From the NCBI GenBank assembly GCA_040757595.1, contig JBFLWP010000023.1:1-42369 (forward strand): a stretch of DNA of 42,369 bases, given 5' to 3'. A program made the translations under genes and the position numbers. Below are positions 8,441-29,055 of the stretch, piece by piece. Source of the stretch: Nitrospirota bacterium. Its GTDB lineage: Bacteria; Nitrospirota; Nitrospiria; Nitrospirales; Nitrospiraceae. Numbering within the stretch: position 1 is the first letter of the stretch; each line of letters begins with the position of its first letter. A model generated the notes under the pieces. It had not been told where the DNA came from. It did not search any database and saw only the letters and a program-made list of their open reading frames with translations.

Positions 8441-8668
8441 TTACGGTTTCTTGATCCGATCCAGGATGAGCGCGATGCAGCCGCCCAACAATCCGCCCCC
8501 GACGATCGCCGTGAGCAGCTCGACGAGCTTGACCTCCCAGAGCGATCCCTGGGCCTGCATGATCTCCCGGATGCCGCCCTCCAGCATGATCACCGACAGG
8601 GCCATGGTGGCGCCCACCATGAACCACCAGGAGAAAATCCTGACCGAGGGAGGAAGCCCGTTCTTCAC
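8441..8668 (-). CDS. Small two-helix membrane protein
   Basis: 75 residues with two transmembrane segments (about 11-33 and 46-68) and a KKP end. It begins with a GTG that overlaps the comM stop (GTGA), so it is translationally coupled to comM. Family not recognised. Confidence 0.65.
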   Translation of the reverse strand: MKNGLPPSVRIFSWWFMVGATMALSVIMLEGGIREIMQAQGSLWEVKLVELLTAIVGGGLLGGCIALILDRIKKP

Positions 8669-9552
8669 GGGAGGTCTCCGCGGCGGTCCAGGCTCCGGTA
8701 CTGGATCGCCTCCGCCAAGTGCGCGGGCTCGATACGATCGGAGCCGGCCAGGTCGGCGATCGTCCGCGCGACTCGCAGGATGCGCCCGTAGGCGCGGGCC
8801 GACAGGCCCAGCCGGCTCATGGCCTGCTCCAGCAGGTCACGCCCGGTTCCGTCAATCGCGCAGTGGGTCTTCAGGTGGCGCGGCTTGAGTTGGGCGTTGC
8901 AGAAGAGCCCGTCCTTCCGATAACGGGCCGCCTGCCGTGCCCGGACGGACCTCACCCGCTCGCGAATCGCGGCGGACGGTTCCCGGCGGTCCGCTCGCCC
9001 CAGTTCCCGGACCGGCACCGGCGGGACTTCGACGTGGATGTCCAGCCGGTCCAGAAGCGGGCCGGAAAGCCGTGACCGGTACTTTCTGATCTCGTGGGGC
9101 GTGCAGCGGCATTCCCGGGTCGTGTCCCCGTAATAGCCGCAGGGGCAGGGATTCATGGCCGCCACCAGCATGACCCTGGCCGGGTAGCGGAGCGACCCAC
9201 TCGCCCGCGTCAACACCATGGTCCCGTCTTCAAGGGGTTGGCGAAGCCCGTCGAGCACGTGGCGCTTGAATTCCAGGACCTCGTCTAGAAACAGCACGCC
9301 GTTGTGGGCCAGGGACACCTCACCGGGGCGCGGAACGGTCCCGCCGCCGATGAGGCCCGCGTCCGAGATGCTGTGGTGCGGGGCGCGGAACGGGCGGGCC
9401 GTGACGAGCGGTCGTCCGTTGGGCAGGATTCCCCCCACGCTGTGCACCCTGGTGGTCTCGATCGCTTCCTCCATCTCCATCGGCGGGAGGATGCCGGGCA
9501 ACCGGCGGGCCAGCATGGTCTTGCCCGATCCCGGAGGGCCGATCATGAGCAC
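8665..9552 (-). pseudogene. comM: ComM (YifB) Mg-chelatase-like AAA+ protein, 5' part removed by element insertion
   Basis: The remaining 295 codons start right at Walker A (LMIGPPGSGKTMLARR) and include Walker B/sensor sequence FLDEVLEFKRHVLDGLRQPLEDG, AAMNPCPCGYYGD, and the Mg_chelatase C-terminal domain. Intact ComM is about 500 residues, with a Lon-protease-like N-terminal domain; that 200-residue part is missing and is not found elsewhere in the window. ComM is a hexameric helicase promoting branch migration during natural transformation. The remnant could still be translated: its ATG at 9546 overlaps the recombinase stop (ATGA), or from GTG 9552. Whether a protein lacking the N-domain works is doubtful. 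Confidence 0.9.
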
Positions 9553-9560
9553 GATTGAGA
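9540..9560. other. Probable attachment-site junction (attL/attR) within comM
   Basis: On the minus strand, comM homology begins at GTGCTCATGATCGGC (codons VLMIG). Upstream of it the usual GGHN codons are replaced by the last codons of the serine recombinase (SQSCS stop). The crossover therefore lies between about 9546 and 9556. Serine integrases need only a 2-bp core, so the exact core cannot be set without the other junction. Confidence 0.7.
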
Positions 9561-11168
9561 CTCAATTCCATATCCCCTTGCTTTCATCCTCAATAAATCA
9601 ATAATTCCAATCAGTTCGATACTATGATCCTGATGATACCATATCCCAATCTGCGGCGATTTATCCCTGGGGTCTGGGTTCAAAAACAGCAATTTCAGAA
9701 GAGTACGCTTATCAGGGAATGTAAGAGTCTCGCAGGCGCGTTTCTGAAGCGAGGCCATCCACACTGTATTGATTGACTTCACTCGCGCAAGCCGGCGCTG
9801 ATCGGACCAAGCAACAGTCAGCTGCTCTTCTAAGGTCTTCATCTCCGTTTTCAACTTCAATAACTGCGGATGAACTTCTTCATCGATTGCCCCAATCATA
9901 TAGAGGTTGATTAACCGTGCTTTTTCTTTTCTCCGCATTTCAAGAAGCCGTTCGATGCGACGGGGGTCACGAACGCCATCCCCTTGTGCGGCGTCAGTTC
10001 CATGGTTCGCCCGCTGTATCGCCTGATGAAGCACGTCAGGCTGAGAGAGCAACGACGTCACTGCTTTCCAGACGGCTTCCTCGACCCAGTCAGCACGGCA
10101 AGCCGGGACCGGACAGGGAGCCAATCTAGAGATCTTCCGTCGTCTATTCCAGCAAACGTAGTAGCGCTGTTCGTTCGCGTAGCATTCACCTGTCATCCGA
10201 CACCCACAAGAAGCACACCAGAGAATCCCTCCTAACAAATACTCTCGCTTGGTATTGCGGCTCGACAGCGTTTTCCGGCTGTTCAAGGCCAGCTGAGCCG
10301 CCTCAAATGTCTCTTTCGTGACGATCGCTGGAACTTCCACGGTCACCTGCTCGGACAATGGCCGCGGCGCTAAACGGCCGATCGCTCCTCGTCGCCCAAT
10401 GCCAGGATCCTCTCGTTTCCATTTCCATCGAACAAAGGCGCCGGCGTATTTAGAGTCATGCAAGATTCGAACAACGGAAGATTTTGACCACGGCGTCCGT
10501 TGCCCCAATGGGGTCAAATACCCTGCGGCGGTGAGTGCATGAGGAATGATCTCGCAACTCTCCCCATTCAGACACCGCTGAAAAATCTCCCGAACGACCG
10601 CCGCTTCCTCCTCACGGATCTCAAACCGTCCCTCGACAATCTGATAGCCATACGGTCGTCTTCCGCCAATGAACCGACCTTGCCGGACCTTCTCGAGTTT
10701 CCCACGCATGGCCCGGCGCAAAAATTTCCTCTTTTCCAGTGCGCTAAGACGGCTAAAGATATCCGAGATAAACTCGTGGTCTTCGTTAGCAAAATCATAG
10801 ACTTGCGAAGGCGTGATGACATAGATGCAGTGGCGTCGGCAGATGTCCTTGATGATTTCCCAATCGATAGATTTCCGGGCACGGGTCATTCGGTCCAGAT
10901 CAATCACAAAGATGGCGTCGAAGAGGTCTCGCTCGGCATCATCGAGCAACCGCAGCATGCCTGGCCGCTCGTTGATCGTCTCGCCAGAGACCCCATCATC
11001 AACATACGGCTCATCTACTAACTCATAGCCATGCTGTCGCACGATCCCGGGCATGACCGATAATTGAGAGGCGATCGTGTGCCGTTCCCGTTGTTGTTCT
11101 GTGCTCACACGGGCGTAGATAACGGCACGTTTAGGCTTGGCGGCATCCATGACGGAAGTATTGTTCAC
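9543..11168 (-). CDS. Large serine recombinase (site-specific integrase)
   Basis: 541 residues from GTG 11168 (AGGCGGTGA upstream); ATG 11150 is an alternative. Domains in order: resolvase catalytic domain (residues 13-160) with the nucleophile Ser22 in YARVSTEQQ, the recombinase domain (about 190-290: RPYGYQIVEGRFEI..., GYLTPLGQRTPWSKSSVVRILHDSKYAGAF), a zinc ribbon (WCASCGCRMTGEC..., then CWNRRRK...PCPVPAC) and a coiled-coil C-terminal part. This is the architecture of phiC31-like integrases that insert an element at a short attB. Its stop lies exactly at the comM junction, the expected place for an integrase next to its att site. Base composition is visibly less GC-rich than the flanks, consistent with transfer. 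Confidence 0.95.
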   Translation of the reverse strand: MNNTSVMDAAKPKRAVIYARVSTEQQRERHTIASQLSVMPGIVRQHGYELVDEPYVDDGVSGETINERPGMLRLLDDAERDLFDAIFVIDLDRMTRARKSIDWEIIKDICRRHCIYVITPSQVYDFANEDHEFISDIFSRLSALEKRKFLRRAMRGKLEKVRQGRFIGGRRPYGYQIVEGRFEIREEEAAVVREIFQRCLNGESCEIIPHALTAAGYLTPLGQRTPWSKSSVVRILHDSKYAGAFVRWKWKREDPGIGRRGAIGRLAPRPLSEQVTVEVPAIVTKETFEAAQLALNSRKTLSSRNTKREYLLGGILWCASCGCRMTGECYANEQRYYVCWNRRRKISRLAPCPVPACRADWVEEAVWKAVTSLLSQPDVLHQAIQRANHGTDAAQGDGVRDPRRIERLLEMRRKEKARLINLYMIGAIDEEVHPQLLKLKTEMKTLEEQLTVAWSDQRRLARVKSINTVWMASLQKRACETLTFPDKRTLLKLLFLNPDPRDKSPQIGIWYHQDHSIELIGIIDLLRMKARGYGIESQSCS

Positions 11169-13571: not shown

Positions 13572-13595
13572 GGCTGTATTTCGGTATTACGGCCA
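13572..13595 (-). promoter_or_regulatory. Element motif copy b ahead of the lipoprotein/receiver operon
   Basis: The minus strand reads CTGGCCGTAATACCGAAATA; TATTAC is at 13585-13590. A TGGTCA/TGACCA hairpin (loop CCT) follows within 25 bases, before the GTG start at 13533. It has the same core as the other element motifs and no convincing -35. Confidence 0.55.
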
Positions 13596-13678: not shown

Positions 13679-14854
13679 TTACTTCTTGATGGGCATGATG
13701 ATACAGATCGTGCGATCCTCGTGGCCCGTCAGCACGACCGGGGCCGGCTGATTGACGACTTGCGACCATTCGACCTGTTCGGCGCGCAGGATCTCCAACG
13801 CCTCGAGCAGGAAATGGGGGTTGAGGCAGACGGTATGCGGCTCGCCGTCGTACTCGGCCTGCATGGTTTCTTCGGCCTGGCCGATGTCGCTCTGCGTGCT
13901 GACCGTGAGCGCCCCCTTGGTCAACTGGCAGTCCATGGACGGATAACTGGGGGAAGCCAGGAGCGCGATCCGCTGGACGGCGGCGATCGCCTCCTCCCGA
14001 CCCACCCTCAGGGAATTGGTGTGCGGCTGAGCCGCCGGATTGGCCGGCACGACGGCCTTCCAGTTGGGGTATGGCCCCGGCTGATAGTCCGTTCGGAGAT
14101 GCCAGGACCCCACCGTGAGATCCATCCCGTCCTGCCGGAAGGTCATCGTGGCCCAGGCCGCCGCGTCCCCTTCCGTGCGATCCTTGGAAGCCGCCGCCAG
14201 CATGCCGATGAGGGCCCGGACGGCAATGGCCGGGATGATCGCGGTCCTGGGCGGCAGCGTCCAGGTTCCGAGCGGATCGACCGGCTCCCAGACGGTCACC
14301 AGACGGCACCCATCGGTCCCGACCAGGCGGAGCCGATCCCGCTCCACTTCCACGAGCACTCCCTGCATCATGGGGCGCGTTCTGTCGTGCTGGTTGACGC
14401 ACGAGCTGGCTTGCTCGAGCAGGGTCCCGAGGCGAATGGCCGACAGGATCACCTGGTTCTGAGGGGGTCCCTCCGCCACCGGGGCTTTGGCCGTCACGGA
14501 AGTGCTGGCGGTATACAGCGTCGTCTTGAACGACCCGACTTGCATGGTGACGACGTTGTCCTTCTGCGTCATCGCCAGATCGCCGGACAGCATTCGGACG
14601 GTCTCCCGCAGCTTCCTGGCCGGCATCATGAGAACGGTGCGAGCAGCCGTTTCGCACGGGAGCGTGACACGGATCTCGGTCGCCTGATTGGCGGCCCGCA
14701 GCCGCAGGGAGCCGGGTTCGATCGCCAGTTCCACGACCTCGTCATTCTGGTAATGATCCGCGGTCACCGGCGCGAGCCGATCGAGCGCCTCGGCCAATTG
14801 TCGGGCCGGAATGGTCCACGTGGCCGTGACGGGCAGGGTTGCGCTTTTTGTCAT
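13679..14854 (-). CDS. dnaN: DNA polymerase III beta subunit (sliding clamp) paralogue
   Basis: 391 residues from ATG 14854, where GGAGGA fits; ATG 14866 overlaps the upstream stop. Three clamp domains are visible: N-terminal (ATWTIPARQLAEALDRLAPVT...), middle (QVILSAIRLGTLLEQASSCVNQHDRTRPMMQGVLVEV) and C-terminal (PHTVCLNPHFLLEALEIL...), ending IIMPIKK like the conserved PM(R/K)L tail. The clamp forms a ring dimer that tethers polymerases. It is slightly longer than the usual 366-375 residues and divergent, and lies far from dnaA or gyrB. An element-borne copy suggests the element supplies its own processivity factor, perhaps for replication after excision. Confidence 0.92.
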   Translation of the reverse strand: MTKSATLPVTATWTIPARQLAEALDRLAPVTADHYQNDEVVELAIEPGSLRLRAANQATEIRVTLPCETAARTVLMMPARKLRETVRMLSGDLAMTQKDNVVTMQVGSFKTTLYTASTSVTAKAPVAEGPPQNQVILSAIRLGTLLEQASSCVNQHDRTRPMMQGVLVEVERDRLRLVGTDGCRLVTVWEPVDPLGTWTLPPRTAIIPAIAVRALIGMLAAASKDRTEGDAAAWATMTFRQDGMDLTVGSWHLRTDYQPGPYPNWKAVVPANPAAQPHTNSLRVGREEAIAAVQRIALLASPSYPSMDCQLTKGALTVSTQSDIGQAEETMQAEYDGEPHTVCLNPHFLLEALEILRAEQVEWSQVVNQPAPVVLTGHEDRTICIIMPIKK

Positions 14855-14865
14855 CTGTTCCTCCA

Positions 14866-15798
14866 TTAAAAGGTGGCGGAAGCGCTGAAATAGTACAGCT
14901 GGCTTTGGCGAGCCGCCCCGTTGAATTGGACTTCACTGGACGTGCCGTTGGAGAAGAAGGTCCTGGCGGTGCCGCGGCCGGTCTCCATCCACTGCCAGCG
15001 CCAGCCGAGACTCATCCAGGCGCGATCTTTCAGAAACGACCATGCCAGGGCCGCATCCGTCCCGACTCCCCAGCCGGTGGCCGTATGGGTGAAACTCGGA
15101 TCTTGCCGGAGATCCGATCGGCGGTTCCAGGTCCCTTGGCCGTCGTATCGGAGCCACGGCCACCAGGCCACTTCCCCCGTGAGCGCAAACGCGCTCCGGC
15201 CGAGCGGGAGATACTCTTTCAGTCCGAGCTCGGGCCCGTACCAGCGGGCCCGGTAGGTGCTGTTCAGCCGATCGATGGCGCTGAGAGTCGGGACGTCTTG
15301 GACCCCGTCCACGATGCGATAGGTTTGCTGGCTGAAGATGCCGCCGATCCGGAGCCAGCTCTGGCTCCAGGACTGATTCAGCCACCGATACTCTACGCCG
15401 CCGCGAGCCGCCCAGAGCATGTTGCCGTCGATCTGGCTCATGCTCCTGATTAACAACCCTTGTCTGTTGTTTCCAGCGAAGTCCTCGTCCCGCACGCTGC
15501 CGGATTGCAGGACTCCGCCGTCGAGTTCCAGGTCGAGTCTCCAGTCCTGGTGGCGCCAGGCGCTTTTGACGAATCCGACTACGGTCTCGGTTCGCTGAAA
15601 CGTGAGTTCTGAGAGGATATTCGGCCGTCCTCCCGGGCCGGCGATACTCCACGCCAACCGTTCGGATCCGATCCCGGTCCCGAGCGTGACGTCGATCTCC
15701 GCGAACGCCGGCCCGGGGAGACACAGCAGGCACCCCCACCATCCCAGGATTTCACACGCCAATAGCAGAGTGTTGCACATGCGCATCTTCTTGTTCAT
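14866..15798 (-). CDS. Outer-membrane beta-barrel protein coupled to dnaN
   Basis: 310 residues from ATG 15798 (GGAGAAGCG upstream). Signal peptide residues 1-33 end PGPAFA. The body has amphipathic, aromatic strands (WRLDLELDGGVL, GGVEYRWLNQSW, SWLRIGGIF, AWMSLGWRWQWMETGRG) and ends in SATF, the terminal phenylalanine that the BAM complex recognises. Its stop TAA overlaps the ATG at 14866 (TAATG), so dnaN is translationally tied to it. Barrel fold and outer-membrane location are well supported; the reason for pairing with a clamp is not known. Confidence 0.75.
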   Translation of the reverse strand: MNKKMRMCNTLLLACEILGWWGCLLCLPGPAFAEIDVTLGTGIGSERLAWSIAGPGGRPNILSELTFQRTETVVGFVKSAWRHQDWRLDLELDGGVLQSGSVRDEDFAGNNRQGLLIRSMSQIDGNMLWAARGGVEYRWLNQSWSQSWLRIGGIFSQQTYRIVDGVQDVPTLSAIDRLNSTYRARWYGPELGLKEYLPLGRSAFALTGEVAWWPWLRYDGQGTWNRRSDLRQDPSFTHTATGWGVGTDAALAWSFLKDRAWMSLGWRWQWMETGRGTARTFFSNGTSSEVQFNGAARQSQLYYFSASATF

Positions 15799-15856
15799 CG
15801 CTTCTCCGAATGTCGTGATCGGTGCATTCGCCATCAAGGTGGAACCGGCGGGTGAG

Positions 15857-16285
15857 TCAGCACCGGAGATCCACCAACCGTTGATCGAGATCCGCCGCGT
15901 GGCGAACCATGGTGTGCTTGAGACTCGCGATCGCGCGGTTCATTTCCTCCGGAACCTCCATGAACCGGCCGATCTCTTCCAGAAACGTCCAGAAGGCCCC
16001 GAGCTGACTGCGGTTGCATACCATCGTCAGGTAGTGGGCGGTCTGGAGCAGCCGTTGCGTCTCCAGTTGTCTGTAGACGCCGGGCGTGAGCGGGAACCCG
16101 ATTTCCATCCGCCAGTCTTGGCAGATACCTTCATGTAGGTGTTGGACGGGAACGCGGACACTGAAGCTGATGTGCCGACGATCCTGATCCAGCGGCAACG
16201 TCGTCAGCGTCACGACAATGTCAAAACAGTCATTGAGCTGATTCAACGTCGCCTTGGAGTGGATCGTCCAAAGCATGGGACTCAT
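15857..16285 (-). CDS. Hypothetical protein
   Basis: 142 residues, no signal peptide or membrane segment. An N-terminal beta-rich half (LNDCFDIVVTLTTLPLDQDRRHISFSVRVPVQHLHEG) is followed by a helical half. AAAGGAGG lies 14 bases upstream of the ATG, unusually far, so the true start may differ. It is the second clear gene of the motif c operon, 58 bases ahead of the barrel gene. Family not recognised. Confidence 0.6.
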   Translation of the reverse strand: MSPMLWTIHSKATLNQLNDCFDIVVTLTTLPLDQDRRHISFSVRVPVQHLHEGICQDWRMEIGFPLTPGVYRQLETQRLLQTAHYLTMVCNRSQLGAFWTFLEEIGRFMEVPEEMNRAIASLKHTMVRHAADLDQRLVDLRC

Positions 16286-16621: not shown

Positions 16622-16660
16622 TCAAGGCGGGAGAGCCTCTGTCATCAAACAAGTCGCCAA
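16622..16660 (-). CDS. Possible 12-codon upstream ORF in leader c
   Basis: A strong AAAGGAGG lies 6 bases before TTG 16660, which opens a 12-residue frame (MATCLMTEALPP) ending at TGA 16622. The next gene starts at GTG 16606 without a good ribosome site of its own. That arrangement would suit translational coupling or a leader peptide, but a real downstream start in another frame cannot be excluded. Confidence 0.3.
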   Translation of the reverse strand: MATCLMTEALPP

Positions 16661-16729
16661 CGATTACCTCCTTTGTAATGCAACATGGAAAGAATGGGCG
16701 CGTAACTGCTGATATTTGCAGTGGAAATG

Positions 16730-16826
16730 GCGCGTGTACGGGAGAGCGAAAGACGAGACGCAGCACAATTCGGCACTGGCAGAGCCAGGCCTACCGCAGA
16801 GACACTTCTCCTTGTGTATTACAGCC
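16730..16826 (-). promoter_or_regulatory. Element motif copy c and conserved structured leader
   Basis: The minus strand reads CGGCTGTAATACACAAGG, with TATTAC at 16817-16822. It continues through GCGGTAG, a hairpin (CTGGC-TCT-GCCAG extended by GGC/GCC with one bulged T) and CGAATTG (16766-16773). A second block CGCTCTCCCGTACACGCGC (16730-16748) is shared with leader g. The region lies just downstream of a terminator. Together this is a promoter-like motif followed by a 5' leader of about 150 bases before the first ribosome site. Confidence 0.6.
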
Positions 16827-16855: not shown

Positions 16856-16889
16856 AAAAAGCCTCGGACCCTGCTCGGGTCCGAGGCTT
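16856..16889 (-). terminator. Rho-independent terminator upstream of leader c
   Basis: A perfect 13-bp stem (16859-16871 with 16877-16889), loop TGCTC. On the minus strand it is followed by TTTTTGCC. It ends whatever is transcribed leftward from about 17.2 kb and insulates motif c. Confidence 0.85.
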
Positions 16890-19245: not shown

Positions 19246-19321
19246 AGCAGCACGGTCAATTCGGAAATGCCCGAAGGCACACCTACGGCAGAGACACAAC
19301 TTCTATTGAGATATTACGGCC
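19246..19321 (-). promoter_or_regulatory. Element motif copy d and conserved structured leader
   Basis: The minus strand reads GGCCGTAATATCTCAATAGA, with TATTAC at 19312-19317. It continues through GTGTCTCTGCCGTAGG, a hairpin TGCC-TTCG-GGCA (a C(UUCG)G tetraloop in RNA) and CGAATTG (19257-19263). The order and spacing equal leader c although the hairpin sequence differs. It lies 30 bases after a terminator and heads the macro-domain operon. Confidence 0.62.
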
Positions 19322-21192: not shown

Positions 21193-24100
21193 CTATTCGC
21201 ACTTGCTCCAGGTACAGGAGACGCATTTGAGACAGCCCTCCTGGAACACCAGGACGCCCGCGCATTTGGGGCACGCCGTCTTGGCGGAGCTCTCGGTCTG
21301 CGTCATCCGGAACGCCCGGAGAATGGCCGCCGGAATCGTGCTGACCGAGCCGAACTTCTTGTTGGCTCCGTCCAACTGCTTGAGCAGCTTCTCCAACGGA
21401 ACGCCGTGCTTCAGGGCGGTGGAGAAGATCCGCGAGAAGGCCTCGTAAATCTCCTCGTGCTTGGCTTCCTCGGACGTTGTCGTAAAGATTTCGACCGGGT
21501 TTCCGTCCAGGTACGAAATGTGGACGTAGATCGGCCCGTCCGGACTCTCGACGCGGATGCGCTTCGCGTCCAAGACCGCCGGGAGCGCGTCCTTGGTCTG
21601 CACGGGAGGCGCGGACGACGACGAGGCAGTCACTGAGCCCGGCGATCCGGTAGGATGCCCGTGGCCGTTCCCGTTGGCCTTGGCCGGGTCGGCCGACTTG
21701 GCTTGTCCGACGTTGAGCACCTGATCTTTCCGGGAACCATCCCGGTAGACCGTGATGCCCTTGCAGCCCAGTTTCCAGGCCAGCGTGTAGGCCTTGGAGA
21801 CATCCTCCACCGTGGCCGTGTAAGCCATGTTGATGGTTTTGCTCACCGCCGAGTCCACGTGCTGCTGCACGGTGGCCTGCATACGGACGTGCCATTCCGG
21901 CGCGATATCGTGCGCCGTGGCAAAGATCCGTTGCCATTTCTCAGGCACCGCGGCCAGCCCTCGGCAGGATCCGTGGTTGGCCTGGATCTGCTCCAGCAGA
22001 TCGTTCGACCACCAGCCTTCCGCCCTGGCGACTCGCTCAAACGGCTCACAGACATAGGGAATTTTCTTCCCGTCCATGACCCGCTTGAACCAGATCAGAG
22101 AGTATTCCGGCTCGATACCGGAACTCGTGTGGGCAATCATGCTGGTCGTCCCAGTGGGGGCGATCGTCAGCACGAAGCTGTTCCGAACCTTCGAGCTCGT
22201 GGTCTCGTGTAGACTCCCGGTCCAGGCCGGGTAGACCCCCCGGACCATCGCCAGGGCGGTGGAGCATTCCCACGCCCACTGCTTGATCCGTCCCATGATC
22301 CGGTCCACCTCGGTCAGGGCGGCTTCCGAGTCGTAGGGGATCTCCTTGGCGATGAGGACCCGGGCGAGTCCCATGACGCCCAACCCGATCTGTCTGGTCT
22401 GTCTGGTCCGTTCGTTGATCTCCGGCAAGGGATGACGGTTCGCATCCACCACGTTATCCAGGAATCGCACGCCGAGCTGCACCGTGTCTTTGAGCCGGCT
22501 CCAGTCCAAGTCCATCCGGCCGGTTTCGGGATGGCGGACCAGATGCCGCTCCAAGTTCACGTGGCCGAGCGTGCAGGCATCCCAGGGATGCAGCGGTTTT
22601 TCGCCGCAATTCGCAATGACCATCCCGTTTGCCACAAAGGTATGGGTGATGGGCTCCGTCAGGCAGTACACGTCTTCGACCCCATCGGGCACTAGGGCTT
22701 TGAATCGCACCCAGAACGTCTCCCGATATGGCCCTCCGTCATACTTCCCGAGCAGATCCACGAGCCGCTGTTGCTTCTTAGGAAGGAGGAAGCCCAGCCG
22801 CTCTGCGAATCGTTCCACATTGGACTTCGAGATCACCAAATCGTGATACGGCCGCGTCTGATACAGCGTGCGCCCACCGTGCCCGTCTGGCAAAAGACGC
22901 ATATCGTCAAGCCTACGGTTCTGGTAGATTGCCGAGGCAATCCCCCAGTTCAGCAGGAGCCGCTGAACGTCCTGAAGCAGCGGCAGGCTGATCGAGCATA
23001 ACCTGACCGAGACGCCCTTGTTGGGCGCACCGATCACTGTCCCGTCAGCCGTGAACAAGGCTTGGAGAAAGCCCTGCTGCATCTCAGCCGAGCCAGCGAG
23101 CACCGCCTTTGGAACCGTGAGCTTGTTCTGCTCCGTGAGCCCATGTTCCTCTACGACCTTCCGCAGGCGCGTCGAAGACACCTGATGCGTTGCCAAGGTC
23201 GGAACGGAGATCGCTGAGACGGGATCGTGCTTGCGTCTCCCATCTCCATCCGGAACCAACCGCTGCACCGCCTCCGCAAACATAGGCGCAAGCTCCGCCT
23301 TGTCGCCGTGGAAATCGAGGCAGGCGTCGGTGCTGGTGAGAAAGCCGTCCCCGACGATCCATCCGAGCACCAAGCCCATGTCTCGGGAACCGTCCGCTCC
23401 GAAGGCGCCTCCCTGGGACAAGAGCCGAATCGTGTCGCCCGGGATCAGCTCCTCGGCCGGGACCATACCGCGTTGCGTCTTGATCTTATGGTCCCTCGTG
23501 AGCCGGAGCGTGTACCCCTCGACCGTTTCGAGCCGGAAAACCGGCTGCTGGCTCGCCGTCTTGAACATGGGCGTGGCAGGCGAGCAACAGTCCAGCCCTT
23601 CCACCACCGCATCGACAGGCTGGCCGCTGGCCACCAAGTCTCCGACACGCTGGAGGCCGTTGGCCGTATACACCAGCGCGTCCGCGGTGATGCACGGATT
23701 GGTCGCCTCGATCCGCCCCAGCCGCGGAAGCGGATTGTGGGCGTTCGCGTGATCGATAAAGAACAGCCCAGGCTCGCCGTTTTTCCAGGCGTGCTCCACG
23801 AGCACGTTCCAGAGCGCACGAGCCTGGATGCGCTTGACCACCTGGCCGGAGTGCGGATTGACCAGCGGCCAATCCGTGTCGTTCTCGACCGCCCGCATGA
23901 AGTCGTCGGTGACCGCCACCGAAATGTTGAAGTTGCGGATCTGGCCGTCCTCCGACTTGCAGCGTACGAACTCCAGGATGTCCGGGTGATCGCACGAGAG
24001 GATGCCCATGTTGGCGCCCCTCCTGGTGCCCCCTTGCCGCACCTGCTCCGTGGCTTGGTCGATGATTTTCATGAACGACACCGGCCCGGAGGCCACCCCT

Positions 24101-24537
24101 CCGGACGACCGGACACGGTCGCCTTTGGGACGGAGACAGCTGAACGAGTACCCGGTGCCTCCTCCAGACTTGTGGATCAGCAGGGCTGCCGTGATGGCCT
24201 CCCCGATTCCCCGCATGTCATCCGGGACCGGGATGACGAAGCAGGCGGAATACTGTTGCATGGCCCCTGGCCGCCCCGCATTGCTAAGGGTCGGCGTATT
24301 CGGCATGAAGCGGTTCTCCGCCATCATCCGATAGAACTCTTCCGTGACGGCCGCGATCCCCGGCTCACCGACGCCGTAGAGCCGCTCGGACTCGGCGATG
24401 CACCGGGCGACCCGGCGAAACAGGTCCTCCGGCGTTTCGATGATGGCCCCCGTCTCCGGATCCTTCGCGAGATAGCGTTCCCGGAGGACATCCAGGGCCT
24501 GGGGCGTTAAGGTCGGTTGCGTGTCAGTCGGCTGCAT
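21193..24537 (-). CDS. nrdJ: Vitamin B12-dependent ribonucleotide reductase (class II) with an intein
   Basis: 1114 residues: about 752 of reductase plus a 362-residue intein. Extein features: N-terminal AdoB12-RNR region with FMPNTPTLSNAG, YSACFVIPV, KSGGGTGYSFSCLRP, GGVASGPVSFMKIID, the split active-site NP-C-GEKPL, then PTGTTSMIAHTSSGIEPEYSL and GCKGITVYRDGSRKDQVL. The C-terminal part has DUF-like VYVHISYLDG and a CPKC...CLKCVSC zinc/redox tail. It reduces ribonucleotides to deoxyribonucleotides using adenosylcobalamin, so the element brings its own dNTP supply. AAAGGAGG lies 7 bases before ATG 24537 and motif e lies about 33 bases upstream. Confidence 0.95.
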   Translation of the reverse strand: MQPTDTQPTLTPQALDVLRERYLAKDPETGAIIETPEDLFRRVARCIAESERLYGVGEPGIAAVTEEFYRMMAENRFMPNTPTLSNAGRPGAMQQYSACFVIPVPDDMRGIGEAITAALLIHKSGGGTGYSFSCLRPKGDRVRSSGGVASGPVSFMKIIDQATEQVRQGGTRRGANMGILSCDHPDILEFVRCKSEDGQIRNFNISVAVTDDFMRAVENDTDWPLVNPHSGQVVKRIQARALWNVLVEHAWKNGEPGLFFIDHANAHNPLPRLGRIEATNPCITADALVYTANGLQRVGDLVASGQPVDAVVEGLDCCSPATPMFKTASQQPVFRLETVEGYTLRLTRDHKIKTQRGMVPAEELIPGDTIRLLSQGGAFGADGSRDMGLVLGWIVGDGFLTSTDACLDFHGDKAELAPMFAEAVQRLVPDGDGRRKHDPVSAISVPTLATHQVSSTRLRKVVEEHGLTEQNKLTVPKAVLAGSAEMQQGFLQALFTADGTVIGAPNKGVSVRLCSISLPLLQDVQRLLLNWGIASAIYQNRRLDDMRLLPDGHGGRTLYQTRPYHDLVISKSNVERFAERLGFLLPKKQQRLVDLLGKYDGGPYRETFWVRFKALVPDGVEDVYCLTEPITHTFVANGMVIANCGEKPLHPWDACTLGHVNLERHLVRHPETGRMDLDWSRLKDTVQLGVRFLDNVVDANRHPLPEINERTRQTRQIGLGVMGLARVLIAKEIPYDSEAALTEVDRIMGRIKQWAWECSTALAMVRGVYPAWTGSLHETTSSKVRNSFVLTIAPTGTTSMIAHTSSGIEPEYSLIWFKRVMDGKKIPYVCEPFERVARAEGWWSNDLLEQIQANHGSCRGLAAVPEKWQRIFATAHDIAPEWHVRMQATVQQHVDSAVSKTINMAYTATVEDVSKAYTLAWKLGCKGITVYRDGSRKDQVLNVGQAKSADPAKANGNGHGHPTGSPGSVTASSSSAPPVQTKDALPAVLDAKRIRVESPDGPIYVHISYLDGNPVEIFTTTSEEAKHEEIYEAFSRIFSTALKHGVPLEKLLKQLDGANKKFGSVSTIPAAILRAFRMTQTESSAKTACPKCAGVLVFQEGCLKCVSCTWSKCE
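22609..23694 (-). mobile_element. Intein with LAGLIDADG homing endonuclease in nrdJ
   Basis: Residues 282-643 of NrdJ. It begins at Cys282 (NP|CITADALVYTANG) and ends VIAN, followed by Cys644 (|CGEKPL), so ligation restores NPCGEKPL. Block B is LTRDHKIKT. Two LAGLIDADG-like helices occur: LGWIVGDGFL (391-400) and LQALFTADGT (491-500), so a full homing endonuclease is likely. The penultimate residue is Ala rather than the common His, a known but less frequent variant. The site is the RNR active-site motif, a familiar intein niche. Confidence 0.9.
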
Positions 24538-24554: not shown

Positions 24555-24578
24555 GGCTTCATTGCGATATTACGGCGT
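24555..24578 (-). promoter_or_regulatory. Element motif copy e ahead of nrdJ
   Basis: The minus strand reads CGCCGTAATATCGCAATGAAG; TATTAC is at 24568-24573. The nrdJ ATG is about 31 bases downstream, so a start 7-9 bases after TAATAT would leave a short leader holding only the ribosome site. This copy lacks the hairpin leader of copies c, d and g. Confidence 0.55.
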
Positions 24579-27119: not shown

Positions 27120-27322
27120 GCGCGTGGAACGGGAGAGCGAGAAGCGCCGAGGACAAAGACTGAACGAAAGGATGCCAGGTGAAAGACGGGAACGGCTAAG
27201 CGAGACGGATCGAGGACCGGTCACCGATCAACGAAGGCACGAAAGGGATCGCGGGGGGGGGTGAAATTCGACTCTCAATGGAGTCTACGGCATCAACACT
27301 GTCTACTCCTGTATTACGACCG
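27120..27322 (-). promoter_or_regulatory. Element motif copy g and conserved structured leader
   Basis: The minus strand reads CGGTCGTAATACAGGAGTAG, with TATTAC at 27312-27317. It continues through GATGCCGTAG, a hairpin (GACTC-CATT-GAG, bulge, GTC) and CGAATT (27265-27270). The block shared with leader c (GCGCGTGGAACGGGAGAGCG on the plus strand) is at 27120-27139. A run of nine C in the transcript and a long pyrimidine-rich stretch lie between them. This is the most upstream copy and probably marks the element's right part. Confidence 0.6.
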
Positions 27323-27744: not shown

Positions 27745-27945
27745 GGGGGATAGCGCAGATCAGGCCGCATGCCGATCGCCTCGTAGAAGGCAAATACGGA
27801 GGTCATGATTCAGAGGGAGACGCGGGGAGAAGCCAATTTCAACAGGAATCGGGCCACACCCCCCCCCGGACGGCCCACTACAGCCCGGCGTCAGCACTGT
27901 CAAGCAAGCGTATCCCTCGTGATGGAATCTTCAATTCCCTTGCAC

Positions 27946-27984
27946 GCGCCCGCGTTCCGCCGGCGTGAACGACGACGAAGAAAT
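27946..27984 (+). repeat. 39-bp exact direct repeat, copy 1
   Basis: Begins GCGCCCGCGTTCCGCCGGCG and continues GTGAACGACGACGAAGAAAT. Identical to 28903-28941. The two copies flank the RelE/ParE-Phd module and the iteron-like repeats. Confidence 0.9.
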
Positions 27985-28119
27985 GGCTCTTCCGGAAATC
28001 GTGTGGGTTGCCACTTCTTGTATTTTCCAGACCTTCGAAGGCTAACGAACGATTCCGAGCTTTGTAGACCTCAGCTAAGTTTGCTAGGGCAAAACAGCTT
28101 GCTCCTCCCCCGCCCCCAA

Positions 28120-28818: not shown

Positions 28819-28902
28819 GCAAAAGGGTCAGAAAAGCAACACCGTTCACGACACACGAGTCCGCGAGGGGGAGTCTTCGCCCCCCCTGCCTCCCCCCAGG
28901 AT

Positions 28903-28941
28903 GCGCCCGCGTTCCGCCGGCGTGAACGACGACGAAGAAAT
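28903..28941 (+). repeat. 39-bp exact direct repeat, copy 2
   Basis: Identical to 27946-27984. In the minus frame it interrupts the MazF remnant after the GDAEPGRGAI segment, so this copy may be an inserted or recombined sequence. Confidence 0.9.
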
Positions 28942-29055
28942 AGCGCCCCGGCCAGGCTCGGCATCGCCAGTGAGGTTGGTCGTGAGCGGGACCACCAGCG
29001 TCGAGGGATGGCCCGCGTCCAGGAGCGCCTGGGCTTGGACGATGAGAACGGGGCG
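28942..29055 (-). pseudogene. MazF-type toxin remnant
   Basis: One minus frame reads RPVLIVQAQALLDAGHPSTLVVPLTTNLTGDAEP, matching the central strands of MazF/PemK endoribonucleases (RPVLVVQ... VVPLTT). The first 20-25 residues, including the catalytic arginine region, and the C-terminal half are missing. A short upstream frame (VRKESLRVNAEFAAIERAPDA) may be the tail of its antitoxin. Confidence 0.6.

Follow-up and report, generated by a model that had tools for sequence, protein, structure and literature searches.

A covarying hairpin leader at the start of eight mRNAs of one integrative conjugative element from a Nitrospirota bacterium

The window analysed here (the whole stretch of 42,369 nucleotides, contig JBFLWP010000023.1 of Nitrospirota assembly GCA_040757595.1, called C23 below) carries on its minus strand the promoter-proximal leaders c, d and g, the operon behind leader c, and a large serine recombinase gene at the end of an element; their positions are collected in Table 1. 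The operon behind leader c also gave a phrog_947 match at 1e-42. The recombinase gene abuts the C-terminal half of comM, and the N-terminal half of comM (ChlI plus profile positions 1-27) lies at C2:114061-114669, on another contig of the same genome. Since comM profile positions 1-27 on C2 and 27-205 in the window are what a single insertion into one gene would leave, the window probably represents the far end of the element that starts on C2, and we infer from the sequences a join between the two contigs. Contig C2 carries the F-type transfer genes TraC, TraF, TraG, TraH, TraN, TraE, TrbC and TrbI, along with a Gp3-like excision factor, ParB, a ParM-like protein, helicases and methyltransferases. 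With a recombinase, F-type transfer genes and an insertion site in comM, the element qualifies as integrative and conjugative; contigs C22 and C26, as well as the remainder of C2, presumably belong to it too, because they share its promoters and leaders.

Table 1. Positions of leaders, promoters and genes within the window.
Feature	Position	Strand	Remarks
Strong intrinsic terminator just 5' of promoter c	16859..16889	-	13 pairs, then T run
Promoter of leader c, GGCTG-TAATAC	16816..16826	-	-10 hexamer 16821-16816; +1 inferred ~16809
Linear motif GTGTCTCTGCGGTA of leader c	16792..16805	-	conserved
Covarying hairpin of leader c and conserved GAA	16769..16791	-	hairpin 16791-16772, GAA 16771-16769
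C-rich untranslated stretch, leader c	16667..16768	-	3' end is ribosome site AAAGGAGG, 16674-16667
Operon behind leader c	13679..16285	-	142-aa protein, Pom-like protein, DnaN-like clamp
142-aa protein	16285-15857	-	in leader c operon
Pom-like outer membrane protein	15798-14866	-	Pfam Pom 6e-20
DnaN-like clamp	14854-13679	-	DNA_pol3_beta_3 1e-15
Element-type promoter without hairpin, behind clamp gene	13584..13594	-	pattern and matrix scan
Leader d	19258..19321	-	promoter 19321-19311, hairpin 19283-19263, GAATT; frame shared with c at 19289-19258
Element-type promoter without hairpin, directly 5' of 1114-aa ORF	24567..24577	-	matrix score 17.8
Leader g	27265..27321	-	promoter 27321-27311, hairpin 27285-27270, GAATT; frame shared with c at 27291-27265
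Large serine recombinase, element end	9543..11150	-	Resolvase 6e-22, Recombinase 5e-16, zinc ribbon 3e-13
comM C-terminal half	8665..9546	-	Mg_chelatase profile positions 27-205 plus Mg_chelatase_C

Leader c, read along the minus strand from 16826, has the sequence GGCTGTAATAC-ACAAGG-AGAAGTGTCTCTGCGGTA[GGCCTGGCTCTGCCAGTGCC]GAATTG; down to 16769 this comprises a promoter-like box, the linear motif GTGTYNNTGCNGTA, a hairpin with G-C as its closing pair, and GAA. Within it GCGGTA (16797-16792) leads directly into the hairpin GGCCTGGC-TCT-GCCAG-T-GCC (16791-16772), which is followed by GAATT (16771-16767). The sequence-only reading of the window had described a conserved hairpin leader at this site, with leaders d and g keeping the same frame around different stem sequences that still pair; direct reading of the sequences confirms the observation, leaders d and g are genuine copies, and the same genome holds five more. 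The estimate of a leader of about 150 bases ending in AAAGGAGG was correct, with transcription inferred to start at about 16809 and the ribosome site at 16674-16667, and the "motif c" noted upstream proved to be a shared promoter, repeated about 28 times. The proposed upstream ORF of 12 codons did not hold up: from the TTG at 16660 the frame continues through a TGA into a 92-residue ORF (16606-16328), and its sequence reads as an interrupted frame, not clearly as a separate upstream ORF. This first frame behind leader c (16660-16328, minus strand), which has a good ribosome site before its TTG and the in-frame TGA at codon 13, may reflect a disrupted gene, an error in the sequence or a restart further downstream.

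Four of the further copies (C2:120920, C2:166190, C22:41768 and C26:17476) were found by direct reading; the eighth, C2:115059, was found with a covariance model built from the other seven (40.6 bits, E 2e-8, such E-values being rough). The leader module thus makes up the first ~45 transcribed bases of eight mRNAs of one integrative conjugative element, its orientation always follows transcription, and it always stands directly downstream of a promoter. The operons behind it are of different kinds (methyltransferase-helicase; EAL domain-nuclease-excision factor; AAA ATPase; small proteins; porin-clamp), and the leader is not peculiar to the barrel-clamp operon, which is one among several that carry it. 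Conserved across the copies are the linear motif GTGTYNNTGCNGTA and the GAA, with one copy starting CTGT and one having TGACGTA; as RNA the motif is GUGUYNNUGCNGUA, and the hairpin flanks are GUA and GAA. All eight hairpins pair, the closing G-C pair joining the 5' GTA to the 3' GAA, and it could be that GUA opposite GAA makes an internal pairing of the bulged-G type. Loop length (3-13) and loop sequence vary, and the hairpin lies ~18 nt from the transcription start, as inferred from sequence, in all eight copies. A four-codon mini-ORF (GTG NNN NTG NNG TAG) lies over the linear motif in seven of the eight and was dismissed, neither its peptide nor a ribosome site being conserved.

The pairing was assessed by permutation and by alignment, on the sequences of eight copies from one genome. 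When the two arms of each copy were scored together the total was 43; all re-pairings of arms between copies gave a mean of 26.5 (sd 3.5), and only 2 of 40,320 reached 43. In a 7-row MAFFT alignment nine cells were changed on both sides with pairing kept; shuffling gave 3.3, with 0 of 500 shuffles reaching nine, and every shift of the 3' arm lowered the score. The 78.6% of positions paired in this alignment is an underestimate, because two stems are misplaced in it. The claim that leader c is a base-paired, covarying 5' leader was thereby borne out, and a permutation and shuffle form of the covariation check suggested for c, d and g, with the other copies included, found pairing kept beyond expectation. 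Compensatory changes of this kind are what is expected of a structured cis-acting RNA leader, and we have very little doubt that this is one. It belongs to no Rfam family: at gathering score Rfam 15 matched only a tRNA in the whole window, nothing related was seen around the leader up to E 10, and the eight leader-bearing loci gave no match.

The promoters ahead of the leaders conform to the consensus GGYCG-TAATAY-N6-purine, for which a weight matrix finds ~28 clear sites; 0-2 would be expected in first-order random sequence of the same length. Across the genome GGYYGTAATAY gives 16 sites and the reversed pattern one, and the sites of the former are mostly clustered on C2 (115-176 kb), C22, C23 (the window) and C26. 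In nearly all of them TAATAY is preceded by GGYCG and followed by six bases and then a purine, often AG, and no common -35 box was seen by eye. About 20 promoters of the type have no hairpin. One such site lies ~20 nt before a tRNA-Met (CAT) gene at C26:10127 (L022), which supports the reading as promoters. An element-specific promoter set is, in our judgement, well supported. Extended -10 promoters are a known class in the sigma-70 family, and the element promoters resemble them in the TAATAY hexamer and in the purine start 7 nt downstream, but differ in lacking a -35 box, in the conserved GGYCG upstream, and in having as candidate a sigma factor with region 2 only. The TAATAC also recalls T7, and a promoter for a phage-type single-subunit RNA polymerase was considered and rejected, because the start-site spacing fits a -10 hexamer instead; PF00940 (phage-type polymerase) had no match in the genome, which is a weak negative as control genomes were silent too.

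The candidate sigma factor is encoded by the element itself (C2:125300-125899; L056:5300-5899) and has 199 residues. All nine aligned homologues match sigma region 2 (PF04542, Sigma70_r2; best 4.8e-10), the element's own copy does so at 6e-4, under the curated cut-off, and at E 1 region 4 was matched by none of the nine. In sigma factors at large the -10 element is read by region 2, so that a sigma with region 2 only and a promoter with a -10 only fit one another; the element promoters are most likely recognised by this sigma. Its gene also lies behind a perfect sigma-70 promoter, TTGACA-17-TATAAT, at C2:125224-125252, which suggests a cascade from a host sigma to the element sigma. A second element protein, of 210 aa (C2:167796-168428; L058:7796-8428) and with a TAATAT site of its own, is a stand-alone S1-KH-KH protein that matched NusA structures in phmmer (4mtn, E 6e-5; 2asb, E 0.002). 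The matched part of NusA begins at about residue 134; the S1-KH-KH RNA-binding part is therefore present, and the N-terminal polymerase-binding domain is absent. Homologues of 39-46% identity occur in 16 other genomes of the family, housekeeping NusA being at ~26-30%, and most relatives have a TAATAC or GTAATAY box ahead of the gene. Among the family genomes covered by both searches, 11 had both proteins, 2 had the NusA-like protein only and none the sigma only (Fisher p near 1e-13 with ~120 genomes, the shared-genome number being estimated); in most genomes the two genes share a contig, at a distance of 28-47 kb. Searches for related loci with the sigma, and with the clamp in viral contigs, returned nothing, and a literature search on element-encoded region-2 sigmas or NusA paralogs found nothing relevant.

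The leader is distributed more narrowly than the two proteins. Further homologues in other genomes had been anticipated for a covariance-model search; that search turned up none that was convincing in 175 genomes of the family, and the homologous elements in relatives with sigma and NusA-like protein had no convincing hairpin leader either. Pattern searches gave seven matches in IMG/VR, none with a hairpin, and eight in GTDB representatives, none with a paired hairpin. The match in Nitrospira lenta was rejected, as it lies inside a gene also matched in genus g10 relatives, and weak model matches in relatives (e.g., G009) look like the same coding gene. That this gene of the family relatives comes close to a Nitrospira lenta record suggests a Nitrospiraceae-type organism. 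Scans of the relatives' elements yielded only the hairpin [GAGACCGAGTCTC]GAAC in G297 and G332, which was not above control counts; in G297 (C15:54737) and sister genomes it stands behind a TAATAC box and ahead of the NusA-like gene, and is possibly a diverged leader. Sigma, NusA-like protein and promoter set are thus common to the element family, and the hairpin leader comes so far from one element. Because relatives with both proteins lack a convincing leader, these proteins and the leader are not strictly linked.

Promoters with a hairpin are followed by long untranslated stretches. In seven of the eight copies 133-342 untranslated bases run up to the ribosome site (gene starts were taken from a simple script, and that on C26 is uncertain). 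The C/G ratio after the hairpin is 1.94 for c, 1.12 for d, 2.14 for g, 2.07 for C2:115059, 2.28 for C2:120920, 1.80 for C2:166190, 1.29 for C22 and 1.22 for C26; it is at least 1.8 in five of the eight leaders, and those of d, C22 and C26 are mildly C-rich only. In control stretches upstream of 138 other genes the median ratio was 0.95, and the 95th percentile lay at 1.42. Behind promoters without a hairpin there is mostly a start codon with ribosome site within 11-95 nt and a C/G near or under 1, an exception being the sigma gene promoter at C2:125129 (C/G 2.0 over 157 nt, no hairpin). Strong terminators lie just 5' of leaders c and C2:120920.

A module that is promoter-proximal, specific in sequence and structure, and placed before a long, mostly C-rich, ribosome-free leader suggests a polymerase-modifying signal. 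We tentatively read it, at a probability of about 0.4, as an element-specific elongation or antitermination signal. Transcription would start at the GGYCG-TAATAY-N6-purine sites by means of the element sigma; the nascent RNA would then present the linear motif and the G-C-closed hairpin flanked by GUA and GAA; a protein would bind this module co-transcriptionally; and the polymerase would get through the long leader, C-rich and free of ribosomes, and the rest of the operon without being stopped, for instance by Rho (Rho dependence being judged here from base composition only). The best candidate for the binding protein is the stand-alone NusA-like S1-KH-KH protein, possibly the reader of the module by virtue of its co-residence on the element. 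As expected of an antitermination element, the module is transcribed near the operon start in all eight cases, given the inferred starts. Eight covarying copies, long and mostly C-rich leaders, the element sigma, the NusA-like protein, the joint occurrence of these two proteins in related genomes and the upstream terminators all favour an elongation signal; the relatives with both proteins but no convincing leader, the three mildly C-rich leaders, and the finding of few intrinsic terminators inside the operons, count against it. A wider version, in which a region-2-only sigma, a NusA-like protein without polymerase-binding domain and an RNA tag form a private programme, such that only polymerases from the element's own promoters complete its operons, is conceivable but doubtful.

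The same module might instead act after transcription. Its hairpin could stabilise the 5' end by shielding long, unstructured, ribosome-free leaders from a 5'-end-dependent RNase, and the distance of ~18 nt from the inferred start, the restriction of long untranslated stretches to hairpin promoters (with one clear exception) and the freedom of stem and loop sequences to vary would all suit this; but a plain stabiliser has no need of the conserved linear motif and the GUA/GAA flanks, and we consider it rather unlikely. A switch in which a protein or ligand, once bound to the module, governs how the element mRNAs are translated or decay would account for an RNA module, specific in sequence and structure, being common to several operons, and the genome has one CsrA gene. 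We think such a switch distinctly unlikely, however, as in seven copies 94-300 nt separate the module from the ribosome site, to which it has no complementarity by eye, and as it lacks the GGA loop pattern for CsrA and matches no Rfam family. CsrA itself was set aside as reader, its single gene being at C2:61 kb, outside the element, and the GGA loop pattern being absent.

The conserved block could also be recognised as DNA. The GCNGTAG core, present in seven of the eight leaders, resembles the ops core GGCGGTAGC, and there is a NusG paralog at C12:19980 that an ops-like element might recruit in the manner of RfaH. Yet the two NusG-family genes are on C1 and C12, none on the element contigs, so that no NusG paralog is carried with the element; the C12 paralog adjoins a nucleotide-sugar epimerase-like gene, and ops needs no long covarying hairpin. 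This reading is improbable. The block, which always stands directly downstream of a promoter, might act as a promoter part or, during transfer, as single-stranded DNA in folded form; this is very improbable, in that ~20 promoters of the same type have no block, the block is always oriented with transcription, and its presence goes with long leaders.

An elongation or antitermination signal of this form would have relatives by description among known systems. A linear motif and a hairpin near the start of early mobile-element transcripts are found in lambda nut and HK022 put. The present leader differs from nut and put in having no boxA, no conserved loop, a single hairpin, and the element's NusA-like protein as candidate reader. 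Among conjugative elements, antitermination by a cis-acting RNA is known from canT of Tn916 (PMC11658703, where put and EAR are also named) and from conAn (conAn1/conAn2) of pLS20 (PMC8955417); these too are promoter-proximal RNAs in a conjugative element that serve, or may serve, processive antitermination of its operons, a likeness drawn here from their descriptions. They are Gram-positive, with one leader each, whereas here one short hairpin module is repeated in eight transcripts from element-specific promoters, its role in antitermination being putative. In the LoaP system a small RNA hairpin, dfn, likewise lies in long leaders of several operons and is needed for antitermination (PMC12691694), but the protein there, LoaP, is a paralog of NusG and binds a hairpin of the UNCG type, whereas this element has no NusG paralog, and its loops vary while the stem base is conserved. 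The ops/RfaH system on F-like plasmids (PMC8955417) is similar in the likeness of its core to GCNGTAG and in the F-type transfer genes; ops, however, is recognised in the DNA by a NusG paralog of the host, and here a covarying hairpin follows and no such paralog is carried. A review names host RfaH as the only such system known on Gram-negative conjugation operons (PMC8955417), and RNA-based antitermination in conjugative elements has been described for Gram-positive bacteria (PMC8955417, PMC11658703). If the elongation-signal reading is right, the repeated leader, the element's own sigma and its NusA-like protein would constitute an element-borne antitermination system in another phylum, in which the hairpin may mark the element's transcripts for copying to their end. 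The pairing of NusA-like protein and sigma in eleven family genomes offers a testable handle on how element genes are silenced or switched on.

Two minor observations in the window concern its other parts. The 1114-aa ORF (21193-24537, minus strand), with its promoter at 24577, has a C-terminal end that by eye looks like a B12-dependent ribonucleotide reductase. A 51-nt direct repeat occurs at 27937-27987 and 28894-28944, the two copies being 90% identical and 957 nt apart.
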